From positions 9,604,030 to 9,668,029 of the forward strand of contig CAIIXF020000009.1 of assembly GCA_903813345.2 (NCBI GenBank): a stretch of 64,000 bases of DNA. Reading direction: 5' to 3'. The stretch's first letter is position 1. Each line of letters opens with the position of its first letter. Position numbers and translations under genes: made by a program. The notes under the pieces were generated by a model. That model ran no database searches. It saw only the letters and a program-made list of their open reading frames with translations, and was not told where the DNA came from. Below are positions 1,451 to 51,161 of the stretch, in pieces. Source of the stretch: Owenia fusiformis. Taxonomy: Eukaryota; Annelida; Polychaeta; Sabellida; Oweniidae.

Positions 1451-2994
1451 TTTCATATTTTCCGAAACCCTGTTCTTCCAAAATATCATCTTTGTCTGTG
1501 GTAGGATCAGGTTCTTTTGTTGTAATCTCACTATGTGTTTTTGGCGTCTCATCTGCAGTACTTGTAGAATATTCTTTTACAGTAGATGTACTAGTTGGAA
1601 CTGAAACTTTGGATACTAGTACTTCCTCTGTTTGGAATCTTGTTGAATGTGCTGCTTTTGTTATTGCAGTTAGAGTTGACGTTTCTCTCTGCGTGGCTGT
1701 TGTTGTTGTTGATGTTGGTTGAGGTGTTGTAGCCTGTGTTGTTTCCTGTCTAATTGTTGTAATTTTTCTAGATGTGCTAAGAGTTGTTGGTGGAGGAGGA
1801 ATGCATTCATATAATATTTGTTCGTAATTTCTTTTTTTCGATTGACATTTACCACCACTAAGAGTAGATGTTATGTTACATGTACCTTGGTTATCACAAA
1901 TTTCTTTAATCTCTTCGAGTCGTTCTGAACTTTCAACTTGGCAGCACCTTTTGTCATTTGGACAACGATCTACGCTTAGCCCATGTATCACTGCTCTTGT
2001 TTGGATATATTCATGATTGCAATCCAAAGTCATATTTCGGTTGTTGCGTTTTCTGGCAGATTTGAGACATCTATAGCAGACGTTAGTAGCATTTATACGA
2101 CTGGAATTAAAATCTTCTATGGCTGACGAGTTATGTCCGGTTATGTAGCATTTTTTCTCTCCGTTACAAATATCAAATCTTTCTCCCCATTCTGTTTTAG
2201 GTATCAGCTCATTGCTTTCATGACATGTTGTTGCACGAGTGACATTCTCTATGTAAATAGCTTCACCCCTCCCACAAGACAGAGCCATTTCTATGTTATG
2301 TTCTATGGATACCCATTCTATAAAACAGAAATGAATACATTATCAATAATTAATATTAGCCATTTTAGGGGGTTCAGTTCAGGTTTCCATTATCTATTGA
2401 TGACATAATTGTATAATAATGCAAAGATTTAAAAAGTTATATATTTTCACTTTGGATTATGATTTGAAATAATTGGGGTTTGTTGTCCTTTTGACTCGTG
2501 TACACTTGGTTGTTTTCTTTTTCTTTATGGGTTTTGTATCAATTTTTGGTCCTTTCCATTTGGCACTAATGTGCACATATCTAAGGAAGACAACGAGTTT
2601 CAAAATATATTATCTAAGAATAATAGCGTCATTATTATTAAGAAGGTCGAAAACTATTTTTATATATGTATGACAAAAGTTACCGTTATCTAAGGAGGAA
2701 AAAATATCTTCATCTAGGCCCAAGGAAGTTAAAAAGTTGTCAATATCCAAGGAGGGCAAAGGCTATCATTATATTATGAAGACGATAAGGTCATCATTTT
2801 CTCCCGGGCATTATCTTAGGGAACATAATGTACTCATTATACAAGGAAATATATCTAGTAAATCCTTCATAACGATGATAATTGCTCGAAAAAGCAAAAT
2901 AAAAATAAAACTTACCATTGCTATAACAAAGTGACAGCCAAGTCAGATTTATCACAACAATATACAGGTAGTTGTATCTAATGTAATTTTCCAT
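1451..2994 (-). CDS. Gene A: lectin-like membrane receptor, 3' exons not in window
   Basis: Two exons are seen: 2916..2994 (signal peptide, 26 codons, phase-1 donor GTAAG) and 1451..2317 (ectodomain, acceptor TTTTATAG, phase-1 donor GTAAGG). Residues 1-26 form a hydrophobic leader (YLYIVVINLTWLSLCYS). Residues about 37-110 and 121-198 are two SUEL/galactose-lectin-like cysteine modules; the second has MTLDC, VIHG, C.NQGTCNI and ends NYEQILYEC. A Ser/Thr-rich stalk follows to residue 315. N-glycosylation sequons are frequent. No transmembrane or cytoplasmic exon was found between here and the left edge, so the gene either continues outside the window or has lost its 3' half. It lacks the DPCxGT signature of classic SUEL domains, so the lectin call is by cysteine pattern only. 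Confidence 0.75.
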
Positions 2995-3077
2995 AATGAC
3001 CAACCAATATGTATTTTATTCAGTCCTCCGTTAATTCTTCATGTAGCACTGCTGGATGGAGAATAAGCCACCAGAAC

Positions 3078-3086
3078 AAGGAAGTG
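3078..3086 (-). promoter_or_regulatory. ETS-like site upstream of gene A
   Basis: AAGGAAGTG on the plus strand, CACTTCCTT in gene orientation, 84 bp upstream of the gene A ATG. The same word lies upstream of five other first exons of the family. The GGAA core is the ETS-family binding core; binding is inferred. Confidence 0.5.
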
Positions 3087-3307
3087 AAATGCACATTGCC
3101 GATGCATCTTATCGTGGCGTTTTCAAATAGTTTAAGGAAACAGCAGTTATCTTGCATTGTCAATGCCTCGATTATTTAGTGTTACTATCCTGTTTTATTT
3201 TGAATTAGATGTGATTCAAAATACCAGGAATAATTTACAGAAAAATATTTCGTTTTGACGGGACATATCATCTAAGCCTATAGTATTCGCGAATGCAACT
3301 AACGCTT

Positions 3308-4676: not shown

Positions 4677-7600
4677 TCATGTATTGTAAATGTCATTGTC
4701 TGTCAAATAGATGTCATCATGATTACGGCTTGATTTAGTTTGATCCAGCATTTGCATATTCTTAAAATGGTTGGAAAGTCCAATTTTAGGATTCTTTGTC
4801 TTGTCCACTTTAGTGTACATTTTACTGACATCATTGCTAACTTTGAATGGTTGTTTCTTTACAGCTTCATGATCTGGTTTAACCTCCATCGAATAGACAT
4901 CATTATCTTCTATTATCTCCCTCTCTTTACCATTTGAGTTATTTTTCTTCTTCTCTTCATCTAGTACGTATACAGCTTTGCAATCAGCATCTGGAGTTAA
5001 CTCCATCGAATAAATATCATTATCAATTAACTCAATCTTTTCATCATTTGAGTCATTACCATTGTTTTCCTCAGTGTACACGCCTTTCTTACTGGTTGCA
5101 TCATCTAGCACATCATTCTTTGATGGGAAACTCCCATTTGGCTTTGAAACATAAGAATATGCACTGGCCTTGTTCGATGATCCAACCTCATCTCCATTTT
5201 CCTCAGAAGCAGTATAAGGAGTTGAATAATAAACATCTTTATCATCATGTTTTCTTATATGGGAATAGTTCTCATCAAGTGTTTCATCCCTTGGTAAATT
5301 GTTCACTTTTGGTTCTTTTGGCACCCTAAGTTGAATTTTATTGTATCCGTTTTCCTCATTCATACCATTCAGTGTGATGCTTCTTGGTGAAGCATCTGTA
5401 GCTGGTGTTGAGTAATATGGGTCTTCACCAATATCATCAATGATTGCAAATGTTTCATTTTGGTGACTTGGGGTTTGGTCTTTGGTCTTATCATCTATAG
5501 GATTAACATCCTCGGGTGTTGCGTAATATGAGTTTTCTCCAATATCATCAGTGGCAAATGTATTATTTTGTGTACTTGATGTTAGCTCTGTGGTCTGTTT
5601 AATCTCATCATCTGTTGAGGTGACATCCTCTGGAGTTTCGTAATACACATTTTGATTAGTGATGGAAATGTTATTGATCATTTCTTGTTGGATAACGTGG
5701 TCATCCATGTCACTATGAGGGAGTTCATATACATTTGCTGGCTCATCTGTAAGTGAGAAGTCATCCGTGCTTGATTCCAAGGAATGATGATTTATATAGA
5801 TATTTGATCCATGCTGCTCTTCTGTAGATTTCGAAGCTGCTTTCCCATTTTCTTTGTAGTTGATGTTTGAACTGTAGAACTCATTTTGAATCCGTCCTGG
5901 ATCATTGACATTTTGATATGTGTTTTCAAGTGATTTTATTGGTTCAACAACGGCAATATTTAGCTTCACCTTCATCCCTTTATCAGATTCATCATTCAAG
6001 TCCTTTGTAAAGGCAGCATTTGCATAATGATTATCATCATTATCTGATTTACTTTCTTCCTTATTGTACTTCTTTGTTGCTCTAAAATAGATATAGAAGA
6101 TTTAGAGACAAGATACAATATTTTTTATCATTAACTTTTACTTATACTAAGCAATCAAACGAAACACTTTATGAGCTAAATCATCAAAAACAATTAACAT
6201 GATCTTTCAATTACCCGACAGTTTGATTTGCAAATTCATGTTGTTTTTGTTGCTATAGTATTGAGGATTGATTCCAACTATTCAATGTTACATCGATGCA
6301 TGAAATATGACAGTTAGGCTAACAGACAATAATGCAAATTATGAAAATTTATTTGAATTATGATTATATCAGGAGTACAGAGAGACATCATACTCAAATA
6401 TAAGCTTGGCATCGTTTATCCTTATACAATGCTTATCTAATGTTTAAGTTGTAACTCTTCATTACTTACTTTCTTTTCTTCCTGACTAAAAACACTGCCA
6501 TAAATGCAATCATACTAAACAGAACCAGCAGTCCAACTACAGATGGCACAATAATAGCTGGAATAAAAACGTGAATAAGGCTTGTGACACAATGTGAAAA
6601 AGAAAATAAACCTTGTGAAAAAGGTTGTACAACGTATATTAATATCACGTGATTTAAAAATACAGCATAAGTATTAGCCACCATATGCTCTCTGCTTACA
6701 TTGCCAAAATGATGAGATAATAATTTTGTTTGTTTTAAGTTGCTTACTGGTTATATGTGCCTGGTGTTCAAGTATTCTCTCTCTGTAAGTTGTTAATTCA
6801 TGGGTCTCTGTTGTCAGGTCAGCAATGGTTGTATTCAAATTCCCGGTTCTTCCAATGGTGCTACCTGCAGTTGAAACAGATGTATTTCCGACGGAGGATT
6901 GGAATTTTGTAGTAGTCGGTTGTGTTGTGGCAGGTTCTGATGAAGTTTGGGTCGACTGTGTTGTTGTTGCTGTTGTTGACTTATCGTTTGGTAAAATTGT
7001 TGACGAATGTATAGTATGTTGTAGGGTTGTTGCAAAATGGGTTGTTGTCGAAGGTTTTGTTGAAGGTTTGGGGTCAGGTGCACATTCGTAAAACACCTGT
7101 TCATAATTGTTATCTACCCCAAAAAAATCACAATATTCTGTTGGTGTGGATTGAAATGAACATTTTTCCAGACCGTTAAAGGTCTCTGATATATAGTTTA
7201 GCCTTTGCTCATTTACATTACTACATTTTATATTCCCATCACATGGTTTAGCTGTTCCATGGATTACTGATGATACATTGATACAGTAGTTCTCATCACA
7301 CTCTAGAGTCATATTTTGTCCATTACATTGTCTGGTGGACAAGAGGCAGTCATAACAAATTTCTTCATAAGGAGGACAAAGAAAGCACCAGCCGCATGTT
7401 GATACTGCTTTTAAATTGCACGTATATTTTCCGTTGCAATCAACTAATTCTTGTCTCCAATCACTCATATGAATTACTTCATGACAATCAAACGGACATG
7501 GACACGTGCGAAAATGAGTGACTTTTGTTATAAAAATGGTGTCATTTGGAACACATTCCAAATTAAGATCGAAATTATGCTTCTTTTTTTCACATTCTGA

Positions 7601-8786
7601 AAAGATAAGTATTCAGTTTTTAAATCGATCATTATTTACACTAGTCTGATAACATTGTAGGTATACAAAACGTCCGTCTTTTAACTTATTCATGAGAAAA
7701 TGGATCGATTCTCATTTAGCCTTTCTGAGTTTATGATTATATTATCAAAAATGTGTTCAATACATATTCAATTATTATCTAATCAATACAATTAATAACT
7801 TTTCATGATCTTACAACATAGAACATATGGGAAATAGATCCGACCTAAAAATCACATTTAATAACCAATTTTCAAGACCCCATTTTCGATCTAAAGTTAT
7901 ATGTAGGATAGATTTTCAATCGCATTGAGAGGACTTTTTATATGTAATTAGGCGAGAATCAACATTTTATACTGGTATAGTCTATTGCTATGATGTGACG
8001 TGAAAAGACTAATATACAATTATTGACCTCTCCAGAGGTTTACTGTCAAAATTATATCCCGAGACTGTAAACCGAGACCGTAGGTCGAGGTTTACAGTCT
8101 CGGGATATAATTTTGACAGTAAACCGAATGGAGAGGTCTATAATTGTTTTGTTAGTCAGAAGAATATCTTAGATTTTTCTGACACTTGAAGTTGACTTGA
8201 AGTTGGATCCAGACCCTCGAGACGTTCATGTTGTATTTCATCTGCCACGGCAGTAAGTTCACTCAATGGAGTCAAATTAATCTCCTGGGCGAAGTCCACT
8301 AAAAGCTTTGTACAAAGTTTTAGATTTTTCTTCGTATTTTGACTGTCTTTACTCTCCAAGAGACTATTAATATCCTCATCTTCAACATTTTTGAAACGGC
8401 TAGTGCTAGCGGCGGCCATTTTATCGTCTGATAATGACGTCATTTTAGTGGAATGATGGGAATATTATTCACCGGCAATGCATTGCGCGGTGTACAGTTA
8501 AAATTATTCACCGCTCGTTGACCAATCAAAATCGAGTATTTCAACTGAGGTACTAACAATAAATAATATTTTTTATGTTTTATGTCAATATCTTCGACAC
8601 ATGAAGAAATGTGAAGGAATAAAAAGGTCAACATTAAGACACAAGTGAATGATTAATTGAAAGATATTGTATTTGCATTTTAAAACGTTTGAATTAAATC
8701 AACTCACCCGTGTTATCACATCTTGTTATCAGTATCGCAATAATCACCAAAACAATGCATCGGTTAACAAAATTTATTGCCATCAT
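4677..8786 (-). CDS. Gene B: lectin-like receptor with multi-tyrosine tail
   Basis: Complement join 4677..6081, 6470..6557, 6748..7596, 8708..8786; 2421 nt, 806 residues, frame closes exactly. Exon 1 is the signal peptide (MMAINFVNRCIVLVIIAILI). Exon 2 has two SUEL-like modules (residues about 39-110 and 125-199, the second ending NYEQVFYEC) and a Thr-rich stalk to about 309. Exon 3 gives the membrane helix (VGLLVLFSMIAFMAVFLV) and stop-transfer RKKRK. Exon 4 is a 468-residue acidic, low-complexity tail with more than 20 tyrosines: four YYxTP sites, YSHI, AYSYV, two VYSME/IYSME sites and MYTKV. After the family terminal motif KNPKI it runs on for about 34 residues and ends with two more tyrosines. 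Likely a plasma-membrane receptor or adhesion protein; ligand unknown. Closest relative in the window is gene E by the first module. Confidence 0.88.
8017..8147. repeat. Hairpin with near-perfect 35-bp arms in gene B intron 1
   Basis: TTTACTGTCAAAATTATATC at 8039 is matched in inverted orientation around 8105-8125, with a loop of about 16 bases that is itself partly palindromic (GACCGTAGGTC). Outer arms CAATTATTGACCTCTCC / GGAGAGGTCTATAATTG also pair. This is probably the terminal structure of a transposon relic that includes the adjoining ORF. Confidence 0.75.
8156..8443 (-). pseudogene. Transposon-derived ORF, N-terminal type seen in Crypton/ZMYM/QRICH1-like proteins
   Basis: A 95-residue ORF in intron 1 of gene B. 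The segment SRFKNVEDEDINSLLESKDS followed by QNTKK and a hydrophobic helix resembles the N-terminal region next to the Crypton-derived recombinase domain (DUF3504 family). The catalytic part is absent. It abuts the hairpin at 8017-8147 and is most likely the remnant of a mobile element, not an exon of gene B. Family assignment is from memory of the pattern and is uncertain. Confidence 0.45.
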
Positions 8787-8914: not shown

Positions 8915-8956
8915 AAATTTATTAATGTTATCATATGACTATTGCAGCTTCAAGTA

Positions 8957-12429: not shown

Positions 12430-15400
12430 TCAAATTTTAGGATTCTTTGTTTTGTCCACTTTAGTGTACATTTCACTGACATCCTTGCTGGCTTTAAATG
12501 GTTGCTTCGTTACAGTTTCGTGATCATCTTGTTTAACCTCCATTGAATAAATATCATTATTTATCAGCTCAATCTCTTTACCATTTGAATCATTATCTTT
12601 ATTTCCTTCCTCATCTGGCAAAGCTTCATACTCAGTATCAGGTTTAACCTCAATTGAATAGACATCATTATCTATTAGCTCTATCTCCTTACCATTTGAT
12701 TCATTATCTTTATTTCCCTCAGTATACACACCCCTCTTACTGCTTGATTCATCTAGCACAGCACCCTTTGGTGGGGAACTCCTGCTTGACTTTGTAACGT
12801 AAGAGTATGCATTACTCTTGTTTAAGGATCCAACTTCGTCTCCATTTCCTTCAGAAGCATTATACGGGGTTGAATAGTAAACTTCATTATCACCATGTTG
12901 TCTTATATGAGAATAGTTCTCATCAAGTGCTCTATCTTTGGGTATCTCTTTTGTCACACTTAATTGAATTCTATTATAACCATCTTCCTCATTCTCACCA
13001 TTCAGTGTGATGCTTCTTGGTGAAACATCTGTAGCTGGTGTTGAGTAATATGGGTCTTCACCAATATCATCACTGATTGCAAATGTTTCATTTTGGTGAC
13101 TTGAGGTTATGTCTCCGGTCTTATCATCTATGGGATTGACATCCTCAGGTCTTGTGTTATATGGATTTTCACCAACATCACCAGCAGCAAATACTTTATT
13201 TTGTGGAAGTGAAGGTTGATCTGTGGTCTGTTTAGACTGGTCATCTATTGAGGTGACATCCTCGGGTGTTTCGTAATACAAATTTTGATCAGTGATGGAA
13301 ATTTTCTTGTTCATTTCTTGAATTTCTAGGTCACTGGTGTCACCATCAGGGAGTGCATAAACAGCATTTTCAGGCTCGCCTTCAAGTGAATAGTCATCTG
13401 TGCTTGATTCATGTTGATGTTTCTTGGATTCGAGGCTTGATTTATGATGGTATGATTGGCCATTTTCTTTGGAGTCAATGTCTGAACTGTAGATGTCATT
13501 TTGAATGAGGTCTGGGTCATTGAAATTGTTTCCAAGTGATTTCATCGGTTCAACAACAGCAATATTGAGTTTCACTCTCATACCTTTATCAGATGCATCA
13601 TTCAAGTTCTTTGTGAAGGCAGCATTTGCGTAAGTTTGGTCATTATCTGATTGGTTTTCTTTCTCTTTTGTGGATCTAAAACAAATAAGTCAATAAAATG
13701 AGGTGCATCTGGGATTAGAACTATTTTTATTATGTCCCCACCATAAATGTGTTGACACGATTGTCTTTATTTTTTGTTGACATCATATGAAGGATATTTG
13801 GTTTAGCATTCTTACTGTGAATACACTATGAAGAAAAACTTATCATGGTAAGGAATTAGTAGATATGTAACATTTTGTAAAAGTCTCTGTTACCCTTTTT
13901 TCCTCCTGATATGGCACAATACCATCAGCACAATCATAGCGAGTAGAACCACACCACCCAGTATAGATGGCACAACGATACCTTAATTAATAAAGCACAA
14001 GTCACATGGTTAGTTACATTCTGAATTCGAAATAATAAAGGGTCTTCGCAACCAAGACTTATCTGAAAACTGATTGTTGAGAGGAATAACATTAGCTGTT
14101 TGCAACGGGACCTTTCTAGTTGTCATTATCAACAACATGTAATATATACACACATTTTATTTTCATTAGTACTCACTTATGACTTCTGATCCACGTTGCT
14201 TCAAGGTGCTCTCATTATCTGTGGTTGGGTCAGGTTTTATCTCATCAGATGTAATTGGACTATCTTCTGTTATAGTAGTAGATCCATCATTTGGTGTTGA
14301 AACAGACGATGCCTGTCTTGCTGTTGTACGTTGATAATCTTCTGTTGTTCCTCTTCTTGTAACTATTTCTTCTGTTGGTGAATCGTCTGTTGTATGTAAC
14401 GATGTCGTACCTAGTGATGTTTGTTGCCTTCTTCTTGTTGTTGTCTGTCTAGGAATGCATTCATATAATATTTGTTCATAATTTCGTTTTGTATGGGAAA
14501 CCCATCTACATCTACCGATAGGAGTAGCTGTTATATTACAAATTGCCTGACCATCACAGATTTGTTTAAGCGCACCAAGACGTTTTACGTTTTCAATTCG
14601 GCACCTTGCCTCGCCATTAGGACATTGTTCAATTATGCCATGTATCACTGATATCATGTTGATGTGGTCACTTCCACACGCCAAAGTCATATTTGTCCCA
14701 GTACATTGCCTGATAGATTTGTAACATTTGTAGCATATTTCTTCAAAGCCAGTACAGAAAATACAAGATATGCAGAAACTTGACTTAGCAGTCAACTCAC
14801 AATGGTTGTTGCCATTACAATATATCAAATCATTCCTCCAATCTTCTTTTGGTATCGTTTCCTCACAGTAACAATCATAGTCATAGTCATATTCATATTC
14901 ATCATAGTCACATCTTATGTGAGTAACATTTTCTATATAAATTGCACGACCTGTATGGCAAAATATATCGTCATGTTTACTTCCTGCTTCTTGCCGTATA
15001 CATTCTATAACAAAAATCTTTAAAAATACATTTGTAGGTTCATATTTTACATTGCTTCCTTTTTAGTGACGTCTTCTGTGTCATCACATCATGTATTTTG
15101 CAAATGTGTGAAATGGCTCCATATAAATTAAATATGGAATGTTGAAAATGATGCAACACATAAGAAAAGTCGGGGGGCCCACTCGGGTTCAGATCTCCTA
15201 TAGATCAATCGATCCTCAAACCATTGTCACTATCAACGATTGTTTTGAAGTAAGTGAGGTGGCCCGATCCTGTTTGAACCATTGTTCCTCACTAGGGATG
15301 CCCCTACGTCTTCCTAATTCTGTCCAAAACTTCCTCATCACTACAAGAGGATCAACTGATCAGCAAGAGATAAGAGATGGGACCCTGAGTAGGCGCCACA

Positions 15401-26080: not shown

Positions 26081-26134
26081 TTAAACTCATGTGACTTATA
26101 AAAGAATGCGCACACAACTAGAGAAAAATGTTTG

Positions 26135-29867: not shown

Positions 29868-29894
29868 TATTTGGTTATTTATCCAAGACAAAAA

Positions 29895-30100
29895 GAGCCA
29901 AAAATTACAAGCAATATAGCATTTAACTAGCACATGTTGTCCGCTGCAAGGACAGTAGCAGAATAAGCAGATAACAGCCAGACACAAGAATTTTACATAA
30001 CAGTTGAAGCATGCAGGAAACATATGTTGACCTGGTGATGACCCAGGTTGTCTTGAGAAACCCCTCTCAAGTTTAAATTAATTTCACCATGAAATAATAA
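29895..30100. repeat. Split direct repeat A1 of the Ngaro element
   Basis: 5' terminal repeat in element orientation, copy of 25875-26080. Confidence 0.85.
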
Positions 30101-30161: not shown

Positions 30162-30237
30162 ATGTGTGACAACTGGGTATCCATATCATTATGATTATCA
30201 CAACACTGCATCGGTAAACAAAGCTCCTTGCCATCAT
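30162..30237 (-). pseudogene. Orphan exon X: signal-peptide exon of the receptor family without a body
   Basis: ATG ATG start, hydrophobic leader (VVIIIMIWIPSCHT), and a phase-1 donor GTAAGT after 76 nt: exactly the layout of exon 1 in genes B and E. It has its own upstream ETS-like site. No ectodomain, membrane or tail exon exists between this exon and the first exon of gene C at 20476; that interval is occupied by the Ngaro element and the long-TIR element. It is either the 5' remnant of a destroyed gene or an alternative first exon that could splice in phase to the gene C ectodomain at 15004. About 1 kb and more of its upstream flank is related to the flank of gene E. Confidence 0.7.
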
Positions 30238-33403: not shown

Positions 33404-33915
33404 ACATGATTAAATAATATTAATTTATTTTTTGGATCCAAATCAACTCAGACCGTTTATAGACAAAGTGTTCCCAGTATATCGTCTCCATATATTCATG
33501 TAATAAACACGCTTTGAAATATTTTGTTTTGATTACATAGTACTATGTTTTACAGTATATTGTGTTTATATATTTTAGTAAATAATTTAGTAGATCTCCA
33601 TGTTTTACATCCAGATATAAAACATGCTTAACAGTATATTGTTTTCATATATTCATGTATTGCACATTGCAATGCACTGCAGTTCGATTTTAATTCATGC
33701 ATTGTAAACATCATAGTCTGTGAAAGATATATTAGGATTGCTGTTTGATTTTTTGAGCGAGCATTTGCTTATTATTCTCTTTCTTAGAATGAGGTCTTAG
33801 AGGACGCCATTGCTCAAATTTTAGTATTTTTTGTTTTGTCCACTTTGGTGTACATTTCACTGACATCCTTGCTGGCATTAAATGGTTGCTTCGTTACAGT
33901 TTCGTGATCATCTTG
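33404..33915. other. 3' flank of gene D with untranslated former coding end
   Basis: Collinear with the gene C 3' flank from 12012. The stretch 33800-33915 still encodes, in frame after the gene D stop codon, the family C-terminal module with EMYTKVDKTKN and the ancestral final stop (see gene D). Confidence 0.75.
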
Positions 33916-36900
33916 TTAAACCTCCATTGAATAAATATCATTATTTATTAGCTCAATCTCGTTACCATTTGAATCATTATTCTCTTCTTCCTCATCTAGC
34001 ACAGCTTCATAATCAGTTTCGGGTTTAACCTCCATTGAATAGACAGCATTATCTATTAGCTCTATCTCCTTACCATTTGATTCATTATCTTTATTTCCCT
34101 CAGTATACACACCTCTCTTACTGCTTGTATCATCTAGCACGGTACCGTTTGGCGGGGAACTCCTGCTGCTTGGCTTTGTAACGTAAGAGTATGCATTACT
34201 CTTGTTTAAGGATCCAACTTCGTCTCTATTTCCTTCAGAAGCATTATACGGGGTTGAATAGTAAACGTCATTATCACCATGTTGTCTTATATGAGAATAG
34301 TTCTCATCAAGTATTCTATCTTTGGGTACCTCTTTTGTCACACTTAATTGAATTCTATCATAACCATCTTCCTCATTCTTGCCATCCAATGTGATACCTC
34401 TTGGAGGCACATCTGTAGCTGGTGTTGTGTAATATGGGTCTTCACAAATATCATCAATGATTGCAAATGTTTCATTTTGGTGACTTGAGGTTTGGTCTCT
34501 GGTGTTATCATCTATTTGATTGACATCCTCGGGTGTTGTGTAATATGGGTTTTCACCAACATCACCAGCAGCAAATACTTTATTTTGTGGAAGTGAAGGT
34601 TGATCTCTGGTATGTTTAGACTGGTCATCTATTGAGGTGACATCCTCGGCTGTTTCGTAATACACATTTTGATCAGTGATGGCAATTTTCTTGTTCATTT
34701 CTTGAATTTCTAGGTCACTGGTGTCACCATCAGGAAGTGCATGAACAGCATTTTTAGGCTCGCCTTCAAGTGAATAGTCATCTGTGCTTGATTCATGTTG
34801 ATCTTCCTTGGATTCGAGACCATTTTCTTTGGAGTCAATGTCTGAACTGTAGATGTCATTTTGAATGAGTTCTGTCATGTCTGTGTCATTGAAATTGTTT
34901 TCAAGTGATTTCATTGGTTCAACAACGGCAATATTGAGTTTCACTTTCATACCTTTATCAGATGCATCATTCAAGTTCTTTGTGAAGGCAGCATTTGCGT
35001 AAGTATGGTCATTATCTGATTGGTTTTCTTTCTCTTTTGTGGATCTAAAACAAATAAGTCAATATGATGAGGTGCATCTGGATAAATATTTCTCTTATTA
35101 TGTCCCCACAATGAACGTGTTGACATAATACGACTGTCTTTATTTTGTTGACAGCATATGAAGTAATATTTGGTTTAGCATTATTACTGTGAATACACTA
35201 TATAGAAAATGTTTTCATGTTAACATTTTGTAATAGTCTCTGTTACCCTTTTTTCCTCCTGATATGGTACACTACCAGCAGCACAATAATAGCAAGTAGA
35301 ATCAGCACTCCCAGTATAGATGGCACGACAATAGCTGAATTTATAAAACAGTCGCACGGAGGGTTACATTTTAAAATGTACTTTGTTAATAATTTGATTT
35401 CGGGAATTATTTAAAATTGATAGTCAAGAGGAATAGATTTCAAAGTTTGCAACGGGACTTCTTTAGTTGCCGTAATCAAAAACGGCAAAATCAAAAATAT
35501 ACACATATTTCACTTTTCGTACTATTTTTAATTTTAGTAAATATAATATAGTACTCACTGATAATTTCTGATCCCTGTTGCTTCAAAGTACTCTCTTTAT
35601 TTGTAGTTGTATCAGGTTTTATGGTTATTTCATCAAATGTAATTGGAGTATCTTCTGTCATAGTAGAGCCATCATTTGGTGTTGAAGCAGAGGATGTTTC
35701 AGCTGATGCTTGTCTAGCTATTGTCTCTGTCCCTGTGACGATTTTTTCCGTTGGTGATTCTGTTTTTTGAAACGGTGTCGTACCTTGTGTTGTTTGCTGT
35801 CTTCTTGATGATGTGCTGATGATTGTTGTTGGTCTTGGAACACATTCATATAAAATTTGTTCATAATTTGTCGATTTTCCATCACACCTCCCTCCGGGAG
35901 TAGCTTTTATAATACACATTGCTTGATCATCACAATCTTTTTTAAGGTTACCAAGTCGTTTTGAACTTTCTATTTGGCAGCGTACTCTGCCATTTGGACA
36001 TTGTCTTTTGGGAGTTCTGCCATGCATCACTGCTATTATATTGATGTATACCCCGCCACACTCTAAAGTCATAAGATTACCAATACATTGTCTGACAGTT
36101 TTGCAACATTTGTAGCATATCCTTCCAAAATTAGGACATTCGTCAATACAGTCATCGCAGAAATATTCATTTCTTATTTGACAGTTGTTTTTGCCATTAC
36201 AATCTTTTATTTCTCCAGCCCATTCTGTTTTTGGTATCAGCTGATTGCAGTTACAATTTGGGCCATAATAGTCATTATAATCACATGTTACAGCTGTTAC
36301 ATTTTCTATATGAATACCATTCCTTGGGCTGCAAGACAGAGATATTTCATCAACATAACCGGCTACACACCCTGTAACAAAGATATAAAGAATTACAACA
36401 TTATATTACCATCAAAAATAACTTCTAAATGATTGTCTCATTTGGTTCATGTGGATTCTTCAGGAATAATCAAGTGGTATATGTACACTTGCAAAAAGTT
36501 GCAAAAGGTTGTGCAAACGTTTTAAGAATAGTTAAACGTGAACAAGCCAAATTGAACATTTAATTATGACATTTAGTAAAATCTCAACAATTCAAAACTA
36601 TCCCAATTTCACTGCACTAAACTGACAAGAAGGTGCATACTACACCTTCAACTCGCCGCTACATTCTATTTTTCGATTTGTCCCCAGGATTATGTCATAT
36701 ACATTATAATTATCAACAAGATTCATAAATAACCATTATGTTAATGCATTTAGAAGGAAACCACATTGTGAAAAAGTATAACTTTGTTGTCATGACGTCC
36801 AATGGCCAAATATGTATTGTCTTTTTAGAATTTTAGAAAATAAAATTGGTAAAGAAATGTGTATATAACTGGTTTAAAGTAAGCTTCCCTTTTCGCTCAC

Positions 36901-37638
36901 ATGGTTTGAGCTATGGTTATTACCCACTTGTCCATCCGTCCGGACTTGAACTTGTACAACAAATTTTTTATAAGTAAGAACAATGTTCACATAATGTCAA
37001 AAAGATACAAAATGGCCATCAGTTTTCTTTTCTAAATATCAATAAAACCTATTACATTGATTTGCCGGAAAAGTGTATAGGGAATAAATGTTTTTATAGA
37101 ATGCACTTTCGCCATGTAAACCCAGTACTCATTGTACCAATTATTTAAGATTGGCTTTATTTCAATTCTTAAAATGTCTGGAAATTTTGTCATTATGCTT
37201 CGATATGACTGACAGCAAAAATATCTAAATTCACAGCCAAAAGGAATCTTTTGAAAGCCAATAATTGTAAAGATTGTTTGATTTGACCACGGACCTGAAT
37301 AGTGTCCGCGATTTGACCAGCATTGTTTCAATAATCATTTATAATACAGTGAATTGTTATCTCCAGAGGGGATCAGATAGCATGATAAAATATATGAAGT
37401 GCGGTCAAATCATTTGAACTGCGCTGGAATCTTTTTGACAACAACTACTTTCACAGCTTGAATTACTATCATTGACGACCCATCCATTGTATTACTCCAT
37501 TAACACTTTTGAATAACCCCTTGTGCATGTCCAATGTTTCAATGCTACTTGTGACATTCACAATCACTTACCTCCACTGTGGCAGACAGGTAACCAGACC
37601 ACAAATGATACAATAATACAGACTAGTTTCATAATCAT
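33916..37638 (-). CDS. Gene D: lectin-like receptor, C-terminal module cut off by a nonsense change
   Basis: Complement join 33916..35044, 35246..35333, 35559..36371, 37572..37638; 2097 nt, 698 residues, frame closes exactly. Exon 1: signal peptide (MIMKLVCIIVSFVVWLPVCH). Exon 2: two SUEL-like modules (first with CNQLIPKTEWAGEIKDCNG, second with MTLECG, VMHG, NYEQILYEC) and a Thr-rich stalk. Exon 3: membrane helix (ILGVLILLAIIVLLVVYHI) and RRKKG. Exon 4: 376-residue tail with YYTTP twice, YYSTP, YSHI, AYSYV, VYSMEV and IYSMEV. The tail stops at TAA where gene C has AAA. The 37 or so following codons remain in frame up to the ancestral stop and still spell the MYTKV module. Gene D is the close duplicate of gene C, including 3' flank. 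Confidence 0.88.
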
Positions 37639-39422: not shown

Positions 39423-42400
39423 CTAGCTTTGAATGGCACTTTGTTCAATCTCCTTTAAATAAATATTATTATCTACTAATCCCATCTTATTACCATCTGA
39501 ATCATTGTTCTCTTCTTTCTTAAGTAGCCCAGCTTCATAATCAGTATCGGGTTTAACCTCCACTGAATAGACATCATCTTTCAGCTCCATTACTCTACCA
39601 TTTGAATCAGCATTCTTTTCCCTCTTATCTAGCACAGTTTCATAATTAGTATCGGGTTTAACCTCCATTATATATATCTCATTATCTATTAGCTCCATCC
39701 CATTACCATTTGATTCATTTTCTTTATTTTCCTTAGTATACAGGCTCCTCTTATTGTTTGCATTGGGCTCATCTCCATTTTCCCCAGGAGCATCACAAGG
39801 AGTTGAATAATATACACCTTTATCATCATGTTTTCTTATATGGGAATAGTTCTCATCAAGTATTTCACCGTTAGATACCACTTTATCTTTATGTCTTTTT
39901 GGCACCCTAAGTTGAATTTTATTGTATCCGTTTTCCTCATGCATACCATTCAGTGTGATGCTTCTTGGTGAAACATCTGTTGCTGGTGTTGAGTAATATG
40001 GGTCTTCACAAATATCATCACTGACATCCTCATGTGTTGTATAATATGGGGTTTCTCTAATCTGACCATTGATTACAAATCTTTCATTCCGGGGACTTGG
40101 TGTTTTATCATCTATTGGATTAACAGCCTCAAGTGTTGTATCATATGGGGTTTCTCTAATCTGACCATTGATTACAAATGTTTCATTCCGGGGACTTGCT
40201 GGTGTTTTATCATCCATTGGATTAACAGCCTCAAGTGTTGTATCATATGGGGTTTCTCTAATCTGACCATTGATTACAAATGTTTCATTCCGGGGACTTG
40301 CTGGTGTTTTATCATCCATTTGATTAACAGCCTCAAGTGTTGTATCATATGGGGTTTCTCTAATCTGACCATTGATTCCAAATGTTTCATTCCGGGGACT
40401 TGGTGTTTTATCATCTATTGGATTAACAGCCTCAAGTGTTGTGTCATATGGGGTTTCTCTAATCTGACCATTGATTACAAATGTTTCATTCCGGGGACTT
40501 GGTGTTTTATCATCTATTGGATTAACAGCCTCAAGTGCTGTATCATATGGGGTTTCTCTAATCTGACCATTGATTACAAATGTTTCATTCCGGGGATTAG
40601 GTGTTTTATCATCCATTTGATTAACAGCCTCAAGTGTTGTGTCATATGGGGTTTCTCTAATCTGACCATTGATTACAAATGTTTCATTCCGGGGATTAGG
40701 TGTTTTATCATCTATTGGATTAACAGCCTCAAGTGTTGTGTCATATGGGGTTTCTCTAATCTGACCATTGATTACAAATGTTTCATTCCGGGGATTAGGT
40801 GTTTTATCATCTATTGGATTAACAGCCTCAAGTGTTGAGTAATATGGGGTTTGTCCATTCTCACAATCAGCAGCAATTATTTTATTTTGTGGAATTGGTG
40901 TTAGCTCTGTGGTTTGTTTAGACTGGTCATCTAATGAGGTGCCATTCTCAAGTGCCTCGTAATACACATTTTGATCAATGATGGAAATTTTATTATTTGT
41001 CTCTTGGATATCCCTCTCATTGAATTCACCATCAGGGAGTGCATAGACAGCATTTCCAACCCCACTTTCAAATAAATAGTCATCCGTGCTTGATTTCAAG
41101 GAATGATGATTTATATAGGTATTCGATTCCTGCTGATATTTTGTGGATTTTGGCCTTGATTTCTCATGTGGCAATTGGCCATTTGCTTTGGCGTCAATGT
41201 TTGAACTGTAGATGTCATTTTTAATGAAGTCTGGATCATTGCAATTTTGATAGGTGTTTTCAAGTGATTTCATTGGTTCAACAACAGCGATATTTAGTTT
41301 CACTTTCGTACATTTATCAGAGTCATCATTTGAGTTCTTTGTAAAAACAGCATTTGAATAATGATTATCATTATCTGATTGCCTTTCATTCCCTTCCATT
41401 GTGCATGCTCTAAAAGAAATATAAAAATATATAATTAGTATATATGACATGCGACATAATAATTTTTTCATTAACAATTAAGCATTAACTCTTTCAGCTG
41501 GTTAGGTGACTATAGTCGACTTATCGGTACACGTGGTTAGGCGACCGTAGGTCGACATTTATGGAAATCATTTTCTTTCATTTAAATAGATGGCATACCA
41601 GTACAGTTCCCGGTTAAAAATGTGCCTACCATTTCTACACTGAACTAAACTGTCAACATAACTTCCGTATCCGGTAAAATTATGAAAAATTCCAGTAAAA
41701 TTCGAACAATTTTGCCACTATTTACTTATTTTCACGATAGATTGTCTAGCTTGTTTTTTAAAAATGGCTGCCAGAGGAATAAGAATAAATGAAGATAATG
41801 CAGAGGCTATCTTTGCTGATTCTGGTTCTGAAAGTGGCTCAGATATCGATGATAATGATTCTGATCAAAATGAAAATTTACAAAATGACAAAGATCAAGC
41901 TATTCAAGGTAAGTAAATGTAAAATGGGCTTACACCAAATCATCAGATAGTACATTTCCCTAATGAGTAATGTGTTCTAGCATAATATATACATATAAAA
42001 ATGTCAGAAATGTAGGCCTAGTCACCAAAATTTTTATGAATATGCGCTTTGACTTTCAGTTGGTGGTGATCAAGTTGTACCTGACAGACCACGTCGTCAT
42101 GCAATTCCACCAGACAATGGCCAGTATGATTGGCATTTGTATGACTCCACTGATCCGTATGAAGTCAATTGGATACAGGAATTCAATATTCCACGCCGTG
42201 GTGGTGTTCTCGTCAATACAGACAATTTCACACCTTATGACTATTTCAAGATATTTTATCCTGATGAACTATTGACAAAGATAACAGATGAGACCAATAA
42301 TTATGCGTTCAGCCACTTTGATGTGCCTGGTGGACTTGATAACTTCAGCCCAAGATCTCGGCTGAGACAATGGTACGAGGTGACAGTAGATGAGCTAAGA

Positions 42401-44845
42401 GCATATACAGCGATACAATTGGCCATGGGCATTGTATCTAAGCCAAGCCTTAGGGATTATTGCCCCATGTTTTGAAATCTATCATACACATAGAAACTTT
42501 CGTGCTGCTGCAGGACAAATTATATACGGAATGTGATGATTTTATTCTGATACAAACAGTTATAATCTGATAATATCATATAGTTGGATATACTAAAGTG
42601 TACTGAATGTACTTTGTATGTACTGCTACTTGTCTCTGATATTTGTATGACTTTTAGTATCCATTTTTATGAAGTACAGTGTATTGAAAATGTTGATATT
42701 AAGTGTATTGAAAATGTAGATATAGAATAAGTTGGCTAACTTATTAGTTGGCTAACTTTTACACCACCTTTGGTATTCTAAATGTCAAACTTAAGCTGCA
42801 AAAGTTTGAGAAATGGAAAATGAATATATTTACTATAAACACTGAAAATTTGAAGTAATTCTGTCTAGTACTTTTAGAGATATTGGAAATTTAAACTTAT
42901 AACTGCTAAAACGTCGATTTTCGGCAAAAAAATAACCGGTTTAAGCTACATGGAAAATACGGAATTAACCGGGCGAAAGAGTTAAAGCACAACAAATATA
43001 AGATATTTCATTAAATATATTTACAACGACAGCTCGATGTTGTCGCTAAACAAAGACAATTGACTAATTTGGTAGGTAAGACGTTGAAACCAAATATCAG
43101 TATTTTGCTTTCAGTTTAATTTCTCAGTTTAGTGAAAAGTTTATTCCTTACTTTCTTCTCCTCCTAACTAGATACACTGCCAGTAATGCAATCGCGACAA
43201 GTAGAAGCAACATCCCAACTATAGATGGCGCAACAATAGCTGAAAAAAAATTATGTGAATTAGTGAACAAAGCAAAACAAAACCATGCAATCAAAATAAT
43301 TGTGCCACGCATTTGAGTATTATAGGACGCACATGAATTACAGGCTGAACTACAATATGAACTGTTATTCTGTTGATATTGAAATTATGAGAAGAGTGGT
43401 TTTGTTTGTTTGAAGTTGTTTTCTTCGTTTTAACTGTTGTTTATTTAATAAAGATAGTGTACAGGGTGTAAAAATGAAAAGTCAAATATTGATATATTGT
43501 TTTGTCATAATATTTACTTAGTATATGTGCCTTGTGTTCAATTTCTCTTTCTTTGTAAGATGTTGATTCATGTTTATCGGTCGTACTGGCATCAATTGTT
43601 GTATCTTCATTCTCCGCTGTGCTTACATTAGTGACACCTGGCTCGATTGACTTAGTTGTTGTTAACTGATCATTAGGTGAAGTTGTTGATGAATGTATCT
43701 GTGTTGTTGATGAATGTATCTGTGTTGTTGATGAATGTATCTGTGTTGTTGAAGATATGGGATTATAGAGGCAGTCATAACAAACTTCCTCATAACGAGA
43801 ACAAACGATTGAACACCAACCGACATTGCAGGTTGATTTTGCGTTTAACTTGCACATGGGTTTCCCATTGCAATTGATTAATTCTTGTCTCCAATCACTC
43901 TCATGGATTGTGTCTTGACAACAGGAACCCGATTTGCATTTAAAATGAGTGACGTCTGTTATAGATATGGAACTATCTGGAACACATGTCAACACAAGTT
44001 CTTCATCCTGTTTTCTTTTCTCACAGACTGAAAAGAAAATGATTCAGAATGATAAACTATCTATATTTGAATGTTAAATCGATACTACTTGCTCTTGTAT
44101 AGATCAACGTTGAATGCTATGATTTAGACTTAATCACAAACCTATCTGATTTTATATTGTGATATTCTTGACATTTGATAAATGTGACAGCATACATTTA
44201 AGACCAAAACTGAGCAAAAAATAAGTTGTTAGCCAAAAGCTCAAACAAGGCACTAGCTCAAACTAGGTACCAAAGGAGGAGGGAAAGCATCGCACCAGAT
44301 TTCAGACAGTCGTGTGTTTTAGAATTTGGCCATTTTCTCAGGATTAAAACAGGTGCATATGTTAGGCCAATGCATTATCTCCAGGAAAAGCACTCAAAGA
44401 GATGATAAAATAATTTTGACTTTGAGACAGGGAAGATGCAAACAACCCACCCACATGTTTTTCTGAAATGTTGTCCTGATTTTCAACCCCTTGAAAATTG
44501 AAAAAGCAGGGGTGGAAGTGGTTGAAAACCAGGACATTTCAGAAATAATATGTGGGTGGGTTGTTTGCATCTCACCTGTTTCAAAATTAAAATTATTTTA
44601 TCATCTCTATGAGTGCTTTTCCTGGAGATAATGCATTGGCCTAACACATGCACCTGTTTAAATCCTCTTAAAATAGCCAAAATCCAACATATGACTGTCC
44701 AAAATCTGTTACGATACTTTCCCTCCTCATTTGTAACCGTAAACGGTTTGAACTTATACTTTGACTTACCCGTCTGACAACAAGGTATCCAAATCAGAAT
44801 AAGTACCACAACAATGCATTGGCAAGCAAGTTTTATTGCCATCAT
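39423..44845 (-). CDS. Gene E: one-module lectin-like receptor with amplified tail repeats
   Basis: Complement join 39423..41409, 43152..43239, 43518..44027, 44770..44845; 2661 nt, 886 residues, frame closes exactly. Exon 1: signal peptide (CQCIVVVLILIWIPCCQT). Exon 2 is short: it keeps only the first SUEL-like module (CVPDSSISITDVTHFKC to YEEVCYDC) and then goes directly into a stalk with three SSTTQIH repeats, so the second module is lost. Exon 3: membrane helix and VRRRRK. Exon 4: 662-residue tail with eight consecutive 33-34-residue repeats (NGQIRETPYDTTLEAV core), plus YYSTP, YSHI and YSVEV sites. The frame ends in TAGTAG; the codons after these stops continue in frame with DVSEMYTRM and KKPKI to the ancestral stop. 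The ETS-like promoter block present in gene B is deleted here. Introns carry a piggyBac fragment and a foldback element. Confidence 0.87.
40038..40845 (-). repeat. Coding minisatellite: eight 99-102-bp units in the gene E tail
   Basis: Each unit encodes NGQIRETPY[DY]TTLEAVNP and DDKTP(A)SPRNETFVI variants. Units are 99 or 102 bp, so the frame is kept. The parent module exists as a single copy in genes B, C and D (YYATPEDVNPIDDKT then HQNETFAI in gene B). During amplification the YxTP form became YDTT in most copies. Confidence 0.9.
41489..42981. mobile_element. piggyBac element with internal deletion, in gene E intron 3
   Basis: Bordered by the TTAA target duplication (41485-41488 and 42982-42985) with inverted ends CTCTTTC / GAAAGAG. 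It lies on the plus strand, opposite to gene E, and contains only the N-terminal part of a transposase gene. At 1.49 kb it is shorter than an autonomous piggyBac. Confidence 0.8.
41764..42475 (+). pseudogene. Truncated piggyBac transposase, two exons
   Basis: Exons 41764..41908 and 42060..42475 join in frame (561 nt, 186 residues) across a GTAAGT..CAG intron. The first exon is acidic (DSGSESGSDIDDNDSD), as is usual at the N terminus of piggyBac proteins. The second carries TDNFTPYDYFKIFYPDELL, a TN.YA-like segment and SRLRQWYEVTVDELRAYTAI, typical of the start of the DDE_Tnp_1_7 domain. It stops right after the motif SLRDYCPMF, so all catalytic Asp residues are missing. Probably a deletion derivative; a domesticated N-terminal fragment cannot be excluded. 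Confidence 0.75.
44271..44733. mobile_element. Foldback element in gene E intron 1
   Basis: Left arm about 44271-44495 and right arm about 44510-44733 are inverted copies (GATAATGCATTGGCCTAACA in the right arm mirrors TGTTAGGCCAATGCATTATC in the left). The outer ends are CAAAGGAGGAGGGAAAG / CTTTCCCTCCTCATTTG. No ORF. It lies directly downstream of the signal exon. Confidence 0.8.
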
Positions 44846-48200: not shown

Positions 48201-50977
48201 TTATATGTTTTCTGAATTTTGCTTTTCTTTCTTTTGTACCTTGGCATACATATCATTTATTTCATTTCGCACTCTACTTTGTTTCTCCTTATCAGTTAAA
48301 GGAAGTTGCTTTATCTTATTTACATGCGCATACATATCACTCACATCGTCTGCTACAGCAAATTGTGGGTCTTTCCTTGTACCTTGATTCCAATCTGATT
48401 TGTCTGTTCTATCTTTCTTTTTATCTACCCTCGTGTACAAATGCTGCACATCTTTCACATCATTTATCTCAATATTATTATTAGAATTGTCCCTAACATA
48501 TGGTTTATCTCTATCCAAATGCCCATATGTTTCATTGTTCTCTTTTCCAGTTTTAGGTTTACGTGTACCAAAATGAATAGTATTATAGTCATCTGTAATG
48601 GCTTCATCAGTCTTAGATTGGTCATCATCATTACCAGCTGCATAGTCATAATTGTCCATTTTAGCTGGTATAGGAGGTAAAGGAGAATGCTTATGTTGGT
48701 AGGGTGCTCCAACATCATCTCCAAGTGTAGCGTAATATATATTTTCATCCATTTTAGGTGTGTCATTGAATTGATTGTCATCTTCATGTTGGATATGGTT
48801 ATCAGGTAGCCTCTTTTCAAGTTGGTGATCATCATTCTTGGCTGTTGGATTATCCCATTGTGAAGTGATGGGTTTATGGATATGGGCATATATATCAGTA
48901 ATGTTACCTGGTGATTGTTCATGCTCAATGTCATGCGTGTCGTTCGGAATCAGGTCAGGTTCATCAACTCTTTTATTTTGTACGATAGCATTTGTGTTAT
49001 TAACCCTTTCATTGGCATTGGCATACATAAATGCCACATTTTCAGGAGATTTAGCAAGAGCCGTTCTCTGCACTCTGCTTCTAAAATTAAAATGATTTTA
49101 AACATGATCATAAAACTCAAAGGAAACAAGAAACATCACGCAATAAACAATATCCACCTTTAAAAGGAATATACAAAACAAGTCCAATATCAAATTAAAA
49201 GCATATTCAAGAAGCATAGATGTTAATTTATGGTATTGAAATGAAATATATTCCGACAGCACGAGTACAGTGTCCAAATAATATAACATCGTTTTTTGAA
49301 AAATGCATTGAGGAAAAGGCATATTGAAAAACTCAAACATTCAAAAGGCATTCAATTTAACATGAAAAACATGAGTTTACGTAAATTTGTAAGACGAGAA
49401 TGAAAAAAGCCAAGTTACCGTTTCCTCTTGATTATCCATACCAGCAGCACAACCACAAGAACAATGCCCAACAATCCTAGTATAGATGACAATATGATAG
49501 CTGAAATAACAATGTGCACAGTAATTTTTTTCAAATACTGGTAACGGAACGTGGGTTGACTTCATCGTGTGATGCGTTTGATGCGAAAATACATATTGGC
49601 CGTTTAAAATCCGAAGACAAAATATTGATCTCTAAATATGGACGACAAATTATTATAAAATGTCAAAATTATTCTGATAATGAATATTTTTCTATAATAA
49701 TAATAACAACTAGAAACATTTTTCAATATAGCTAAGATATAACGCATTATGAATTTATATGTGAATCGGAATAATTTTGTACATTCATGCTTCTTTAAAG
49801 TTTAATGAAATACTCACCTACATGAGAGACGCCCAATGCTGTGCTAGCAATTGTCGAATTAAGTGTGTTTGTTGTTATTTTATTGGTTGTGATAGAGTTT
49901 CTTGTACTGATAGTGACCGTGGACAGTGTTCCTGTTGTATCTGGTGGATCTGTCGGCTTTCTACTAGGTTTTGCTGATGAAGTTAATTGTGTTGTTGTTG
50001 CTGTTAAAGGTAGAGCTGTTATTGTTGCTAATGTTACGCGTTTTGATAACTCTGTTGAAGTCACAATTGTTGTTCGTTTGGGTATACAGTTATATAGTAT
50101 CCTCTCAAAGTTATTTTGTACATATCGTTGATTAGCATAGCAGTTTCCAGTTGGAGATGAGTATACATTACAATTACTCCTTCCATTACACATCTCTTCT
50201 AGTTCATTTAACCGTTCCCACTGGGCATATTCAATTGTTTCATTCTTCTTGCAGTACATGGACCTTTGCTTTATACAGTTATAGCGCCATCCATGTGTAA
50301 CTGACAAGACATTGATGGAATCTCTATAACAATTTAATGCTATATTTCTACCTTTGCATTGTTCATACCGCTCATTACTCATGCAACCATAAGAAATATA
50401 CTCATACTGAGTACATCCGAATTCTGCAGGACAAGGATTACATTTTTCATGTATGGATTTGATGTTACACACACGCCTTCCATTGCATCCTTTGATTTCC
50501 GGTCTCCATTCAGCTTGTTGTATTGGATAATCACAGTACCATGATATATAGTTATTAGTTGAAGGGTAACTAACTGTTTCAAAATAAATTACTTCGCCAA
50601 ATGGGCACGATGCTTTTATGTATTCACCTTCACTATGGTACTTTTCGAATAGGTGTTCTGCAAATAATATTAAATATTTCGAGTTGATGGAATATATAGT
50701 ATAGAGAACACAAATATCCATTGTCCACATCAGCAGCCTGATGTTAAATGGTATGCTATTATTACCAACTACACTCCTTGTAATTTTTTTAAATTATCAT
50801 AGTAACGCAAACGTGGAAAGGTATTTTAAATTTTTAACTTATTAGTATTGCTTTAAATAATACAAAAGTAACGAAGAATCTAATAATGTTTTACTTACGT
50901 CCAGAGGTTATACATAATTTATACACAATTAGAATAATGTAGACTTGTAGTATATTGTTCAATAATCCACCGTCCAT
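48201..50977 (-). CDS. Gene F: divergent lectin-like receptor with YxxV/I tail
   Basis: Complement join 48201..49080, 49419..49500, 49818..50657, 50899..50977; 1881 nt, 626 residues, frame closes exactly. Exon 1: signal peptide (ILQVYIILIVYKLCI). Exon 2: two SUEL-like modules (first SCPFGEVIYFETVSYPS to YEYISYGC, second IALNC, VTHG, ending NNFERILYNC) and a long Thr-rich stalk. Exon 3: membrane helix (LLGIVLVVVLLVWII) and KRKR. Exon 4: 293-residue tail with a different motif set: IYAHI, MYAHV, MYAKV, LYTRV, YGHL and one YYATL. The DVSDMYAHV site matches the terminal DVSEMYTKV module of the other genes, so here that module has been used several times, and the YYxTP class is nearly absent. Same exon phases (1, 1, 2) as the rest of the array. 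Confidence 0.88.
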
Positions 50978-51152
50978 TATTAACATTTGTTGCAGTAATA
51001 ATGTTCCTTCTATATTCGAATATATGAAGTAAAAGTAGTCAGATTCAAAAAGGGAAATTTATTATTGTATTGTGCACTTTAATTACATTACTCTCTATTC
51101 GTGTTCTTGAAGGCCTTTGTTGTGTCTTTTTCAGTGAAAATACTAACTGAAC

Positions 51153-51161
51153 AAGGAAGTA
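51153..51161 (-). promoter_or_regulatory. ETS-like site upstream of gene F
   Basis: AAGGAAGTA, 176 bp upstream of the gene F ATG, in the same orientation as in the other genes. The wider block is not conserved here. Confidence 0.4.

Follow-up and report, generated by a model that had tools for sequence, protein, structure and literature searches.

In a stretch of 64,000 nucleotides from the polychaete Owenia fusiformis (contig CAIIXF020000009.1, here G000:C9:9604030-9668029, from a source assembly of 498 Mb in 525 contigs), hereafter the window, six genes lie head to tail on the minus strand. These genes, A to F, share one exon plan, and their predicted proteins combine extracellular modules of the SUEL fold with long cytoplasmic tails rich in tyrosine. 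The best reading of the array as a whole, to which we assign a probability of about 0.6 from sequence and predicted structure, is that of phosphotyrosine-docking recognition receptors. The array genes would encode type I single-pass receptors, with two SUEL modules (one in gene E) held away from the membrane by a Ser/Thr-rich stalk and binding a ligand that is more likely to be the surface of a protein than a simple sugar. The tail, long and acidic, would serve as a docking strip, in which Src-type kinases, as established knowledge suggests, would phosphorylate the tyrosines. SH2 proteins may then dock at a tyrosine pair found throughout the family, Yxx[IL]-x(11-22)-YxH[IVL], and extra Crk-type YxxP docking sites would be present in B, C, D and perhaps in L004, a relative located elsewhere on the contig. 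Gene conversion would keep the tail exons of B-E alike while their ectodomain exons diverge, and different recognition heads would therefore feed one output.

Layout and gene models of the array

A first-pass annotation, made from the letters alone, had described five complete genes, one partial gene and an orphan first exon. The array is real and holds six complete genes. Models B-F were built from the window, and the supposedly partial gene A was finished with two exons from the left flank (L001), which sit 7.9-9.2 kb left of the window edge, past an element in intron 2. The proposed four-exon layout (signal; SUEL modules and Ser/Thr stalk; membrane helix; single tail exon) holds in 6/6 genes, all with GT-AG introns in phases 1,1,2, closing frames and no internal stop, as expected of real genes. 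On the minus strand the genes extend over 50977-48201 (F), 44842-39423 (E), 37632-33916 (D), 20476-12430 (C) and 8783-4677 (B), and gene A occupies 2994-1451 before it continues past the left edge. The joined proteins have 626 (F), 885 (E), 696 (D), 743 (C), 805 (B) and 568 (A) amino acids. Two SUEL-fold modules are found in five of the six genes; gene E, which had been credited with two, holds one, and the total is 11 modules. Queried against the genome, the tail of D retrieved that of C at 6e-195 and that of B at 3e-124, a likeness beyond chance. The first-pass annotation had also taken the DNA for that of a bivalve. One marker in the genome makes an annelid likelier: the Pfam family Eryth_link_C, which bears the name of the erythrocruorin linkers of annelids, has three matches over its cut-off on C6, with a best E of 5.0e-7 and a stop within one of them. 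A search of the assembly for COX1 found none.

Features of the array (from gene models, with further or other evidence named)
1451..2317, minus strand: gene A exon 2, two SUEL-fold modules and stalk
2916..2994, minus strand: gene A exon 1, signal; donor GTAAGT, phase 1
L001 2093-1997, outside the window: gene A exon 3, membrane helix, 97 bases; left-flank gene model
L001 1474-811, outside the window: gene A exon 4, tail, 664 bases including stop; left-flank gene model
4677..6081, minus strand: gene B exon 4, tail, 467 aa, 27 Tyr; tail composition
6470..6557, minus strand: gene B exon 3, membrane helix
6748..7596, minus strand: gene B exon 2, two modules and stalk
8708..8783, minus strand: gene B exon 1, signal
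12430..13675, minus strand: gene C exon 4, tail, 414 aa, 22 Tyr; tail composition
13894..13981, minus strand: gene C exon 3, membrane helix, from which C/D identity rises; window identities
14177..15004, minus strand: gene C exon 2, two modules and stalk
20407..20476, minus strand: gene C exon 1, signal, followed by an intron 1 of 5.4 kb; frame and likeness alone
30162..30234, minus strand: orphan first exon, signal peptide; reading frame and tblastn
33916..35044, minus strand: gene D exon 4, tail, 375 aa, 20 Tyr, ending about 33 codons early; tail composition
35247..35334, minus strand: gene D exon 3, membrane helix
35559..36371, minus strand: gene D exon 2, two modules (modelled) and stalk; predicted structure
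37572..37632, minus strand: gene D exon 1, signal
39423..41409, minus strand: gene E exon 4, tail, 661 aa, 32 Tyr, with 99-bp repeats at 40024-40852; tail composition and repeat scan
43152..43239, minus strand: gene E exon 3, membrane helix
43518..44027, minus strand: gene E exon 2, one module and stalk
44770..44842, minus strand: gene E exon 1, signal
48201..49080, minus strand: gene F exon 4, tail, 292 aa, 13 Tyr, divergent; tail composition
49419..49500, minus strand: gene F exon 3, membrane helix
49818..50657, minus strand: gene F exon 2, two modules (modelled) and stalk; predicted structure
50899..50977, minus strand: gene F exon 1, signal

The first exon of gene C is the least secure part of these models. 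The orphan first exon is most likely the one at 30234-30162, adjoining a DIRS-type element; its likeness to gene E exon 1 is weak (50%, E 0.007), and tblastn found no further family exon beside it.

Fold and sugar contacts of the ectodomains

A profile of the six ectodomains matched the sea-urchin lectin SUL-I (5h4s) in the PDB at E 1.1e-13 and CSL2 at 1.5e-7, with latrophilin lectin domains at 0.01 and weaker. AlphaFold2 was run on the window's own six ectodomain sequences. The modules of gene D were modelled with a predicted local distance difference test (pLDDT) of 77.3 and a predicted template modelling score (pTM) of 0.73, and those of gene F more weakly (pLDDT 69.7, pTM 0.50); 5h4s was the top Foldseek match of both models (D 2.9e-6, F 4.7e-8). 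In VIA, the D model was matched to 5h4s with Z 10.3 and a root-mean-square deviation (rmsd) of 4.6 over 153 aligned residues, and the latrophilin and CSL3 rows reached 6.7-7.8, which would be middling if taken alone. VIA rows beyond the SUEL set (for instance 8cde, Z 5.4, rmsd 10.5, and 5iaz, Z 5.3) were set aside. Because the profile, Foldseek and VIA lines agree, we take the SUEL fold of these modules as shown, at the level of sequence profile and predicted structure. The SUEL-like modules of the first-pass annotation are thereby upheld, although a Pfam domain scan misses them: PF02140 matched 0/6 ectodomain exons at E<=1, where the sole Pfam match (E 0.68) is meaningless, and none of the 18 places listed by a PF02140 scan of the genome lies inside the window. 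Pfam matches to DUF5125, NAC, HERV-K_env_2 and Enterotoxin_HS1 in the ectodomain and tail scans were below cut-offs. The mucin-like stalk was also recognised correctly, as exon 2 closes with 81-114 residues of which 37-43% are Ser or Thr. As a side observation, the Plasmodium proteins P113 and RIPR are among the fold matches of the F model (Foldseek 1.5e-6 and 1.1e-5), which suggests SUEL-like modules in parasite surface proteins.

Rhamnose binding by latrophilin-1 depends on Lys120 and on Glu42, the residue that follows the first Cys, and the changes E42D and K120R abolish most or all of it, according to sections of PMC2430599, in which many receptor-borne modules are also postulated to make protein-protein interactions. 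Contact residues were read by eye from the sequences and alignments of the 11 window modules. Glu stands at the contact place in two (the first modules of B and E), the loop-2 Lys in none, and Glu and Lys together in 0/11; the Tyr contact (YGR) is His in all five second modules. Since the residues needed for rhamnose are replaced, the heads are probably not sugar-binding and the label 'lectin' is doubtful: the earlier 'lectin-like' is right for the fold and wrong for the sugar contacts.

Such modules would also suit developmental co-receptors of the EVA-1 kind, binding guidance or adhesion proteins, with the array as a lineage expansion with neuronal or epithelial roles. Two SUEL modules on one membrane helix are the EVA-1 layout, EVA-1 modules likewise have substituted sugar residues (PMC2430599, in part), and the fold matches of D include latrophilin lectin domains complexed with teneurin-2 and TOL-1. 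We nevertheless regard this alternative as rather unlikely, as a tandem array with divergent heads and homogenised B-E tails is unexpected for a conserved guidance receptor. EVA-1 tails, moreover, carry a FAM176 domain. The old gene name of EVA1C is Fam176C, as a passage of PMC3767613 has it, and none of the tails of B, C, E and F, the four that were scanned, matched FAM176 (PF14851) at E<=1. A genome-wide PF14851 search was empty and is uninformative, since its controls were likewise unmatched.

Cytoplasmic tails and tyrosine motifs

Eight tails were compared, those of A-F and of the relatives L003 and L004. Each tail is one acidic-rich exon of 220-661 aa with 8-32 Tyr (3.6-5.8% Tyr in the array). 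In 6/6 genes one membrane exon is followed by a polar tail up to the stop, with no seven-pass domain, in keeping with the single membrane helix and long multi-tyrosine tail described before. The four tails scanned (B, C, E, F) contain no domain over the Pfam cut-off, and none catalytic.

The pair Yxx[IL]-x(11-22)-YxH[IVL] is present in 8/8 tails, with a constant His at +2 of the second Tyr. A broader search pattern for the pair was found in 9-63 of 5000 shuffles per tail; it was defined after viewing the alignment, and these frequencies describe rarity rather than a blind test. The stronger point, which outweighs the shuffle figures, is the presence of the pair in tails as divergent as that of F, 25% identical to that of D. 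From these alignments we propose the pair as a new tandem motif. The gap of an immunoreceptor tyrosine-based activation motif (ITAM) is 6-12 residues, and that of the pair is 16-22 residues in seven tails and 11 in L003. The pair thus resembles an over-long ITAM in 7/8 tails and would fit ITAM spacing in L003. The partner could be one tandem-SH2 protein that spans a wider gap, or else a pair of SH2 proteins that bind separately.

Several tails also contain YxxP, with 5 in B, 4 in C, 3 in D and 3 in L004 against 0.9-1.15 expected; the count was reached in 2 (B), 20 (C), 48 (D) and 52 (L004, borderline) of 1000 shuffles. Portions of two studies give pYxxP as the consensus for the SH2 domain of Crk, conserved from choanoflagellates onward (PMC5043372, PMC2689226). 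Tyr is the best-kept residue of the tails, in 25/29 cells from A to B-E and in 55/67 from B to C-E. The tail of gene E harbours an in-frame 99-bp repeat of 8.3 copies (40024-40852), with seven copies of ETPYDT[TA]L; as these repeat in frame, tyrosine sites appear to have been added by repeat expansion. In gene D the stop comes about 33 codons before the end of C, and homologous sequence runs on beyond it (33817-33918); because of this earlier stop, gene D is without the last YTKV site.

Motifs of the form Yxx-hydrophobic are AP-2 sorting signals, and the tails could instead belong to endocytic or scavenger receptors in which these tyrosines are not phosphorylated. The conserved pair is of that form in 8/8 tails, and Yxx[VIL] is over-represented in two tails (A, 5 against 1.26 expected; F, 7 against 1.88). 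Sorting, however, needs less than tails of up to 661 residues with 8-32 Tyr, several of them in YY or YxxP, and AP-2-type sorting does not require the His that is constant at +2 of the second Tyr in 8/8. On these grounds an endocytic role is improbable as the explanation of the tails.

Different histories of heads and tails

The ectodomain and tail exons of B-E have different histories. Between C and D, the synonymous distance (dS) is 0.59 in the ectodomain and 0.086 in the tail, and the ectodomains are 57% and the tails 88% alike; between L003 and B, the modules are 58% and the tails 29% identical. Measured in 100-base windows, C/D identity ranges over 0.53-0.86 as far as the membrane exon (12 windows) and over 0.89-0.99 from that exon onward (20 aligned windows). 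The high-identity part spans intron 3, the tail and about 450 bases of 3' flank (the end of the compared extract) and does not include intron 2. For B-E, the proportion of synonymous differences (pS) of the ectodomain minus that of the tail is 0.165-0.408, with 95% bootstrap intervals above zero in 6/6 pairs. The ectodomain tree supports {B,E,L003} at 97/97 and {B,C,D,E} is rejected (p_AU 6.9e-5; 2.2e-5 without L004). In the tail tree {B,C,D,E} is the preferred clade, at 71/93, or 91/95 when L004 is left out.

These data show, at the level of sequence, that the 3' halves are homogenised in B-E, and the mechanism is probably gene conversion. The synonymous step fits best with a 3' half that was converted between loci or exchanged unequally. 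Replacement of the 5' halves would give a like pattern, and exchange may have run in either direction. That the B-E tails are alike through strong purifying selection only, with no exchange between genes, is very improbable: tail dN/dS is indeed below 1 in every B-F pair with an estimate (9/10; 0.30-0.74), yet synonymous divergence differs between exons in 6/6 B-E pairs, and the non-coding intron 3 and 3' flank of C/D are as identical as the tail, while intron 2 is not. Two earlier descriptions need to be divided accordingly. A 'variable tail' suits A and F and fails for B, C, D and E, where it is the ectodomains that diverge and the tails that are conserved; a 'young array' suits the tails of C and D (dS 0.086) and not the ectodomains, which are old (dS 0.59 to saturated across the array). 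Ectodomain dN/dS is below 1 in the 14/15 A-F pairs with an estimate (0.21-0.58).

Relatives in the genome

Relatives were sought with the ectodomains of D, F and L003, and the counts in the genome are lower bounds. Matches outside the window are L003 (C9, the contig of the array, 9.07 Mb), L004 (C9, 25.8 Mb) and L005 (C8), further places at C9 5.0 and 5.29-5.32 Mb, C3 16.35 Mb and C10 31.15 Mb, and weaker ones on C11 and C12. L003 and L004 are further copies, with ectodomain, membrane helix and related tail in order. L003, 0.54 Mb from the array on the opposite strand, fits phases 1,1,2 with a weak donor, GTACAG; L004 can be spliced in frame in 20 ways, of which none uses two GTRA-like donors. 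The stretches fetched for L005-L010 yielded no tail, and for this reason these loci are not counted as receptors of the family. Two of these, L007 and L008 (C9 5.29-5.32 Mb), form a second small cluster of distant two-module ectodomains, with no tyrosine-rich tail in the fetched stretches. L012, a CUB-containing protein by eye, has a SUEL exon that is matched weakly by gene D (E 0.0048) and by PF02140 in both genome and protein scans, under the cut-off both times; these matches tie the array family to ordinary SUEL proteins. Tail searches (D, F, A, L003 and L004, at single-protein sensitivity) retrieved family tails only, bar 13 weak matches (E 0.003-0.009) that involve the final 21-53 residues of L004 and have the look of repeat sequence.

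Proposed function

Several observations weigh against phosphotyrosine-docking recognition receptors with homogenised tails. YxxP is absent from A, F and L003, and the 3 in E are not enriched (400/1000 shuffles); missing in 3/8 tails, it was rejected as a family signature. Immunoreceptor tyrosine-based inhibitory motifs (ITIMs) number 0-2 per tail, not above shuffles in 8/8, and canonical ITAM spacing (6-12) occurs in L003 only (1/8 tails; 82 of 1000 shuffles), so that the shuffle comparison rejects canonical ITIM or ITAM as a family-wide feature. In a symmetrical Fisher test, Tyr conservation reached p<0.05 in 2/11 pairs, which are not independent. Gene F is without homogenisation, its pS against B, C, D and E being alike for tail (0.66-0.74) and ectodomain (0.68-0.72), and the tail of gene A is divergent (the pS comparison covered the B-F tails). 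Whole-ectodomain dN/dS exceeds 1 in no pair, and for C/D by part it is 0.69, 0.40 and 0.52. With the tail data, neither {B,E,L003} (p 0.18; 0.054 without L004) nor {A,C,D} (p 0.064) is significantly rejected, and the tested clades were chosen after seeing the identities, in trees with long branches. Finally, the sugar Lys is often lost in this genome: among six other SUEL modules, taken as a control from PF02140 matches, Lys is kept in 1/6 and Tyr in 5/6. As only one of the six keeps the Lys, its loss does not single out the array family.

A docking receptor with a recognition head still gives the best account of the array. Recognition of cells or microbes has less ground than phosphorylation and SH2 docking, and use in immunity or self/non-self recognition, the least certain part of the account, is proposed only tentatively. 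The conserved tails and drifting heads of B-E are as one might expect of a recognition system. Most known multigene families of self/non-self or pathogen receptors use immunoglobulin (Ig), C-type lectin, leucine-rich repeat or scavenger domains. More doubtful still is the combined proposal of a lophotrochozoan germline recognition system that has a homogenised phosphotyrosine output (with the new tandem motif) and diverging SUEL heads in B-E. Its segmental conversion would recall that of the paired immune receptors of vertebrates, except that head and tail would exchange roles and that the fold is not that of Ig. If true, a SUEL-fold family with docking tails would add a further fold to recognition receptors, its exon-wise concerted evolution would be a natural test of recognition and output evolving apart in one gene, and the new tyrosine pair would offer a direct route to the SH2 partner.

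Mobile elements and other features of the window

An element of 9,040 bp lies within intron 2 of gene A (window 1-1299 and L001 2259-9999). Its terminal inverted repeats match exactly over 69 bp, and the 6-bp target duplication AGCAAT flanks it on either side. Its open reading frames, labelled by eye as integrase, packaging ATPase, protease and capsid, give it a Polinton/Maverick-type look. The DIRS-type element beside the orphan exon (25889-30077) has a reverse transcriptase (PF00078, E 9.4e-17) and a weak tyrosine recombinase match, under the cut-off; an identical start of an open reading frame at 30023 and 26003 points to possible split direct repeats. In intron 3 of gene E, a plus-strand transposase fragment at 42053-42475 matches DDE_Tnp_1_7 (E 4.4e-12), which we take to be of the PiggyBac type. 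A minus-strand open frame of 516 aa at 54574-56124 has no Pfam match at E<=0.01; its Cys-rich stretch is, we presume, reminiscent of a DEG/ENaC channel exon, a candidate only.

Comparison with known systems

As the first-pass annotation had supposed, no published family with this architecture is found among the matches listed in the openly licensed literature, which is weak evidence of absence. The closest known system is EVA-1/EVA1C, a Slit co-receptor, which is single-pass and has two extracellular rhamnose-binding lectin/SUEL modules with substituted sugar residues (PMC2430599, in part). The array differs from it in the Ser/Thr stalks, the tails of 220-661 aa with 8-32 Tyr, the tandem arrangement and the concerted tails of B-E. 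Latrophilins (ADGRL) are seven-pass receptors. Judging by the titles of the fold matches, they share with the array a SUEL fold that is attached to a receptor and binds protein, and they have one lectin domain, as stated in a section of PMC2430599; the array proteins are single-pass, with two modules in 5/6 genes. The best profile and fold matches, SUL-I (5h4s), CSL2 and CSL3, also have tandem SUEL modules. These three are secreted sugar binders, whereas the array proteins are predicted to be membrane-bound and have the Glu, Tyr and Lys contacts together in no module.

With regard to the tails, p130Cas/BCAR1 and the YxxP transmembrane proteins of choanoflagellates resemble the array in their repeated YxxP of the Crk SH2 type, as far as extracts of PMC5043372 and PMC2689226 describe them. 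In contrast to these proteins, the array family has only 3-5 YxxP, in 5/8 tails, together with other ectodomains and no Pfam domain over the cut-off in the four tails scanned.

Siglec-11/16 use tyrosine-based signalling. Like the array, they are receptor genes with segmental conversion; in the account given in part of PMC5701461, it is the ectodomain regions that conversion makes extremely similar, and the outputs are inhibitory and activating. In B-E, likeness lies in the tails and difference in the heads, on a SUEL rather than an Ig-like fold. Since the ectodomain is the converted part in Siglec-11/16, the pattern of conversion proposed for the array would be the reverse of theirs.

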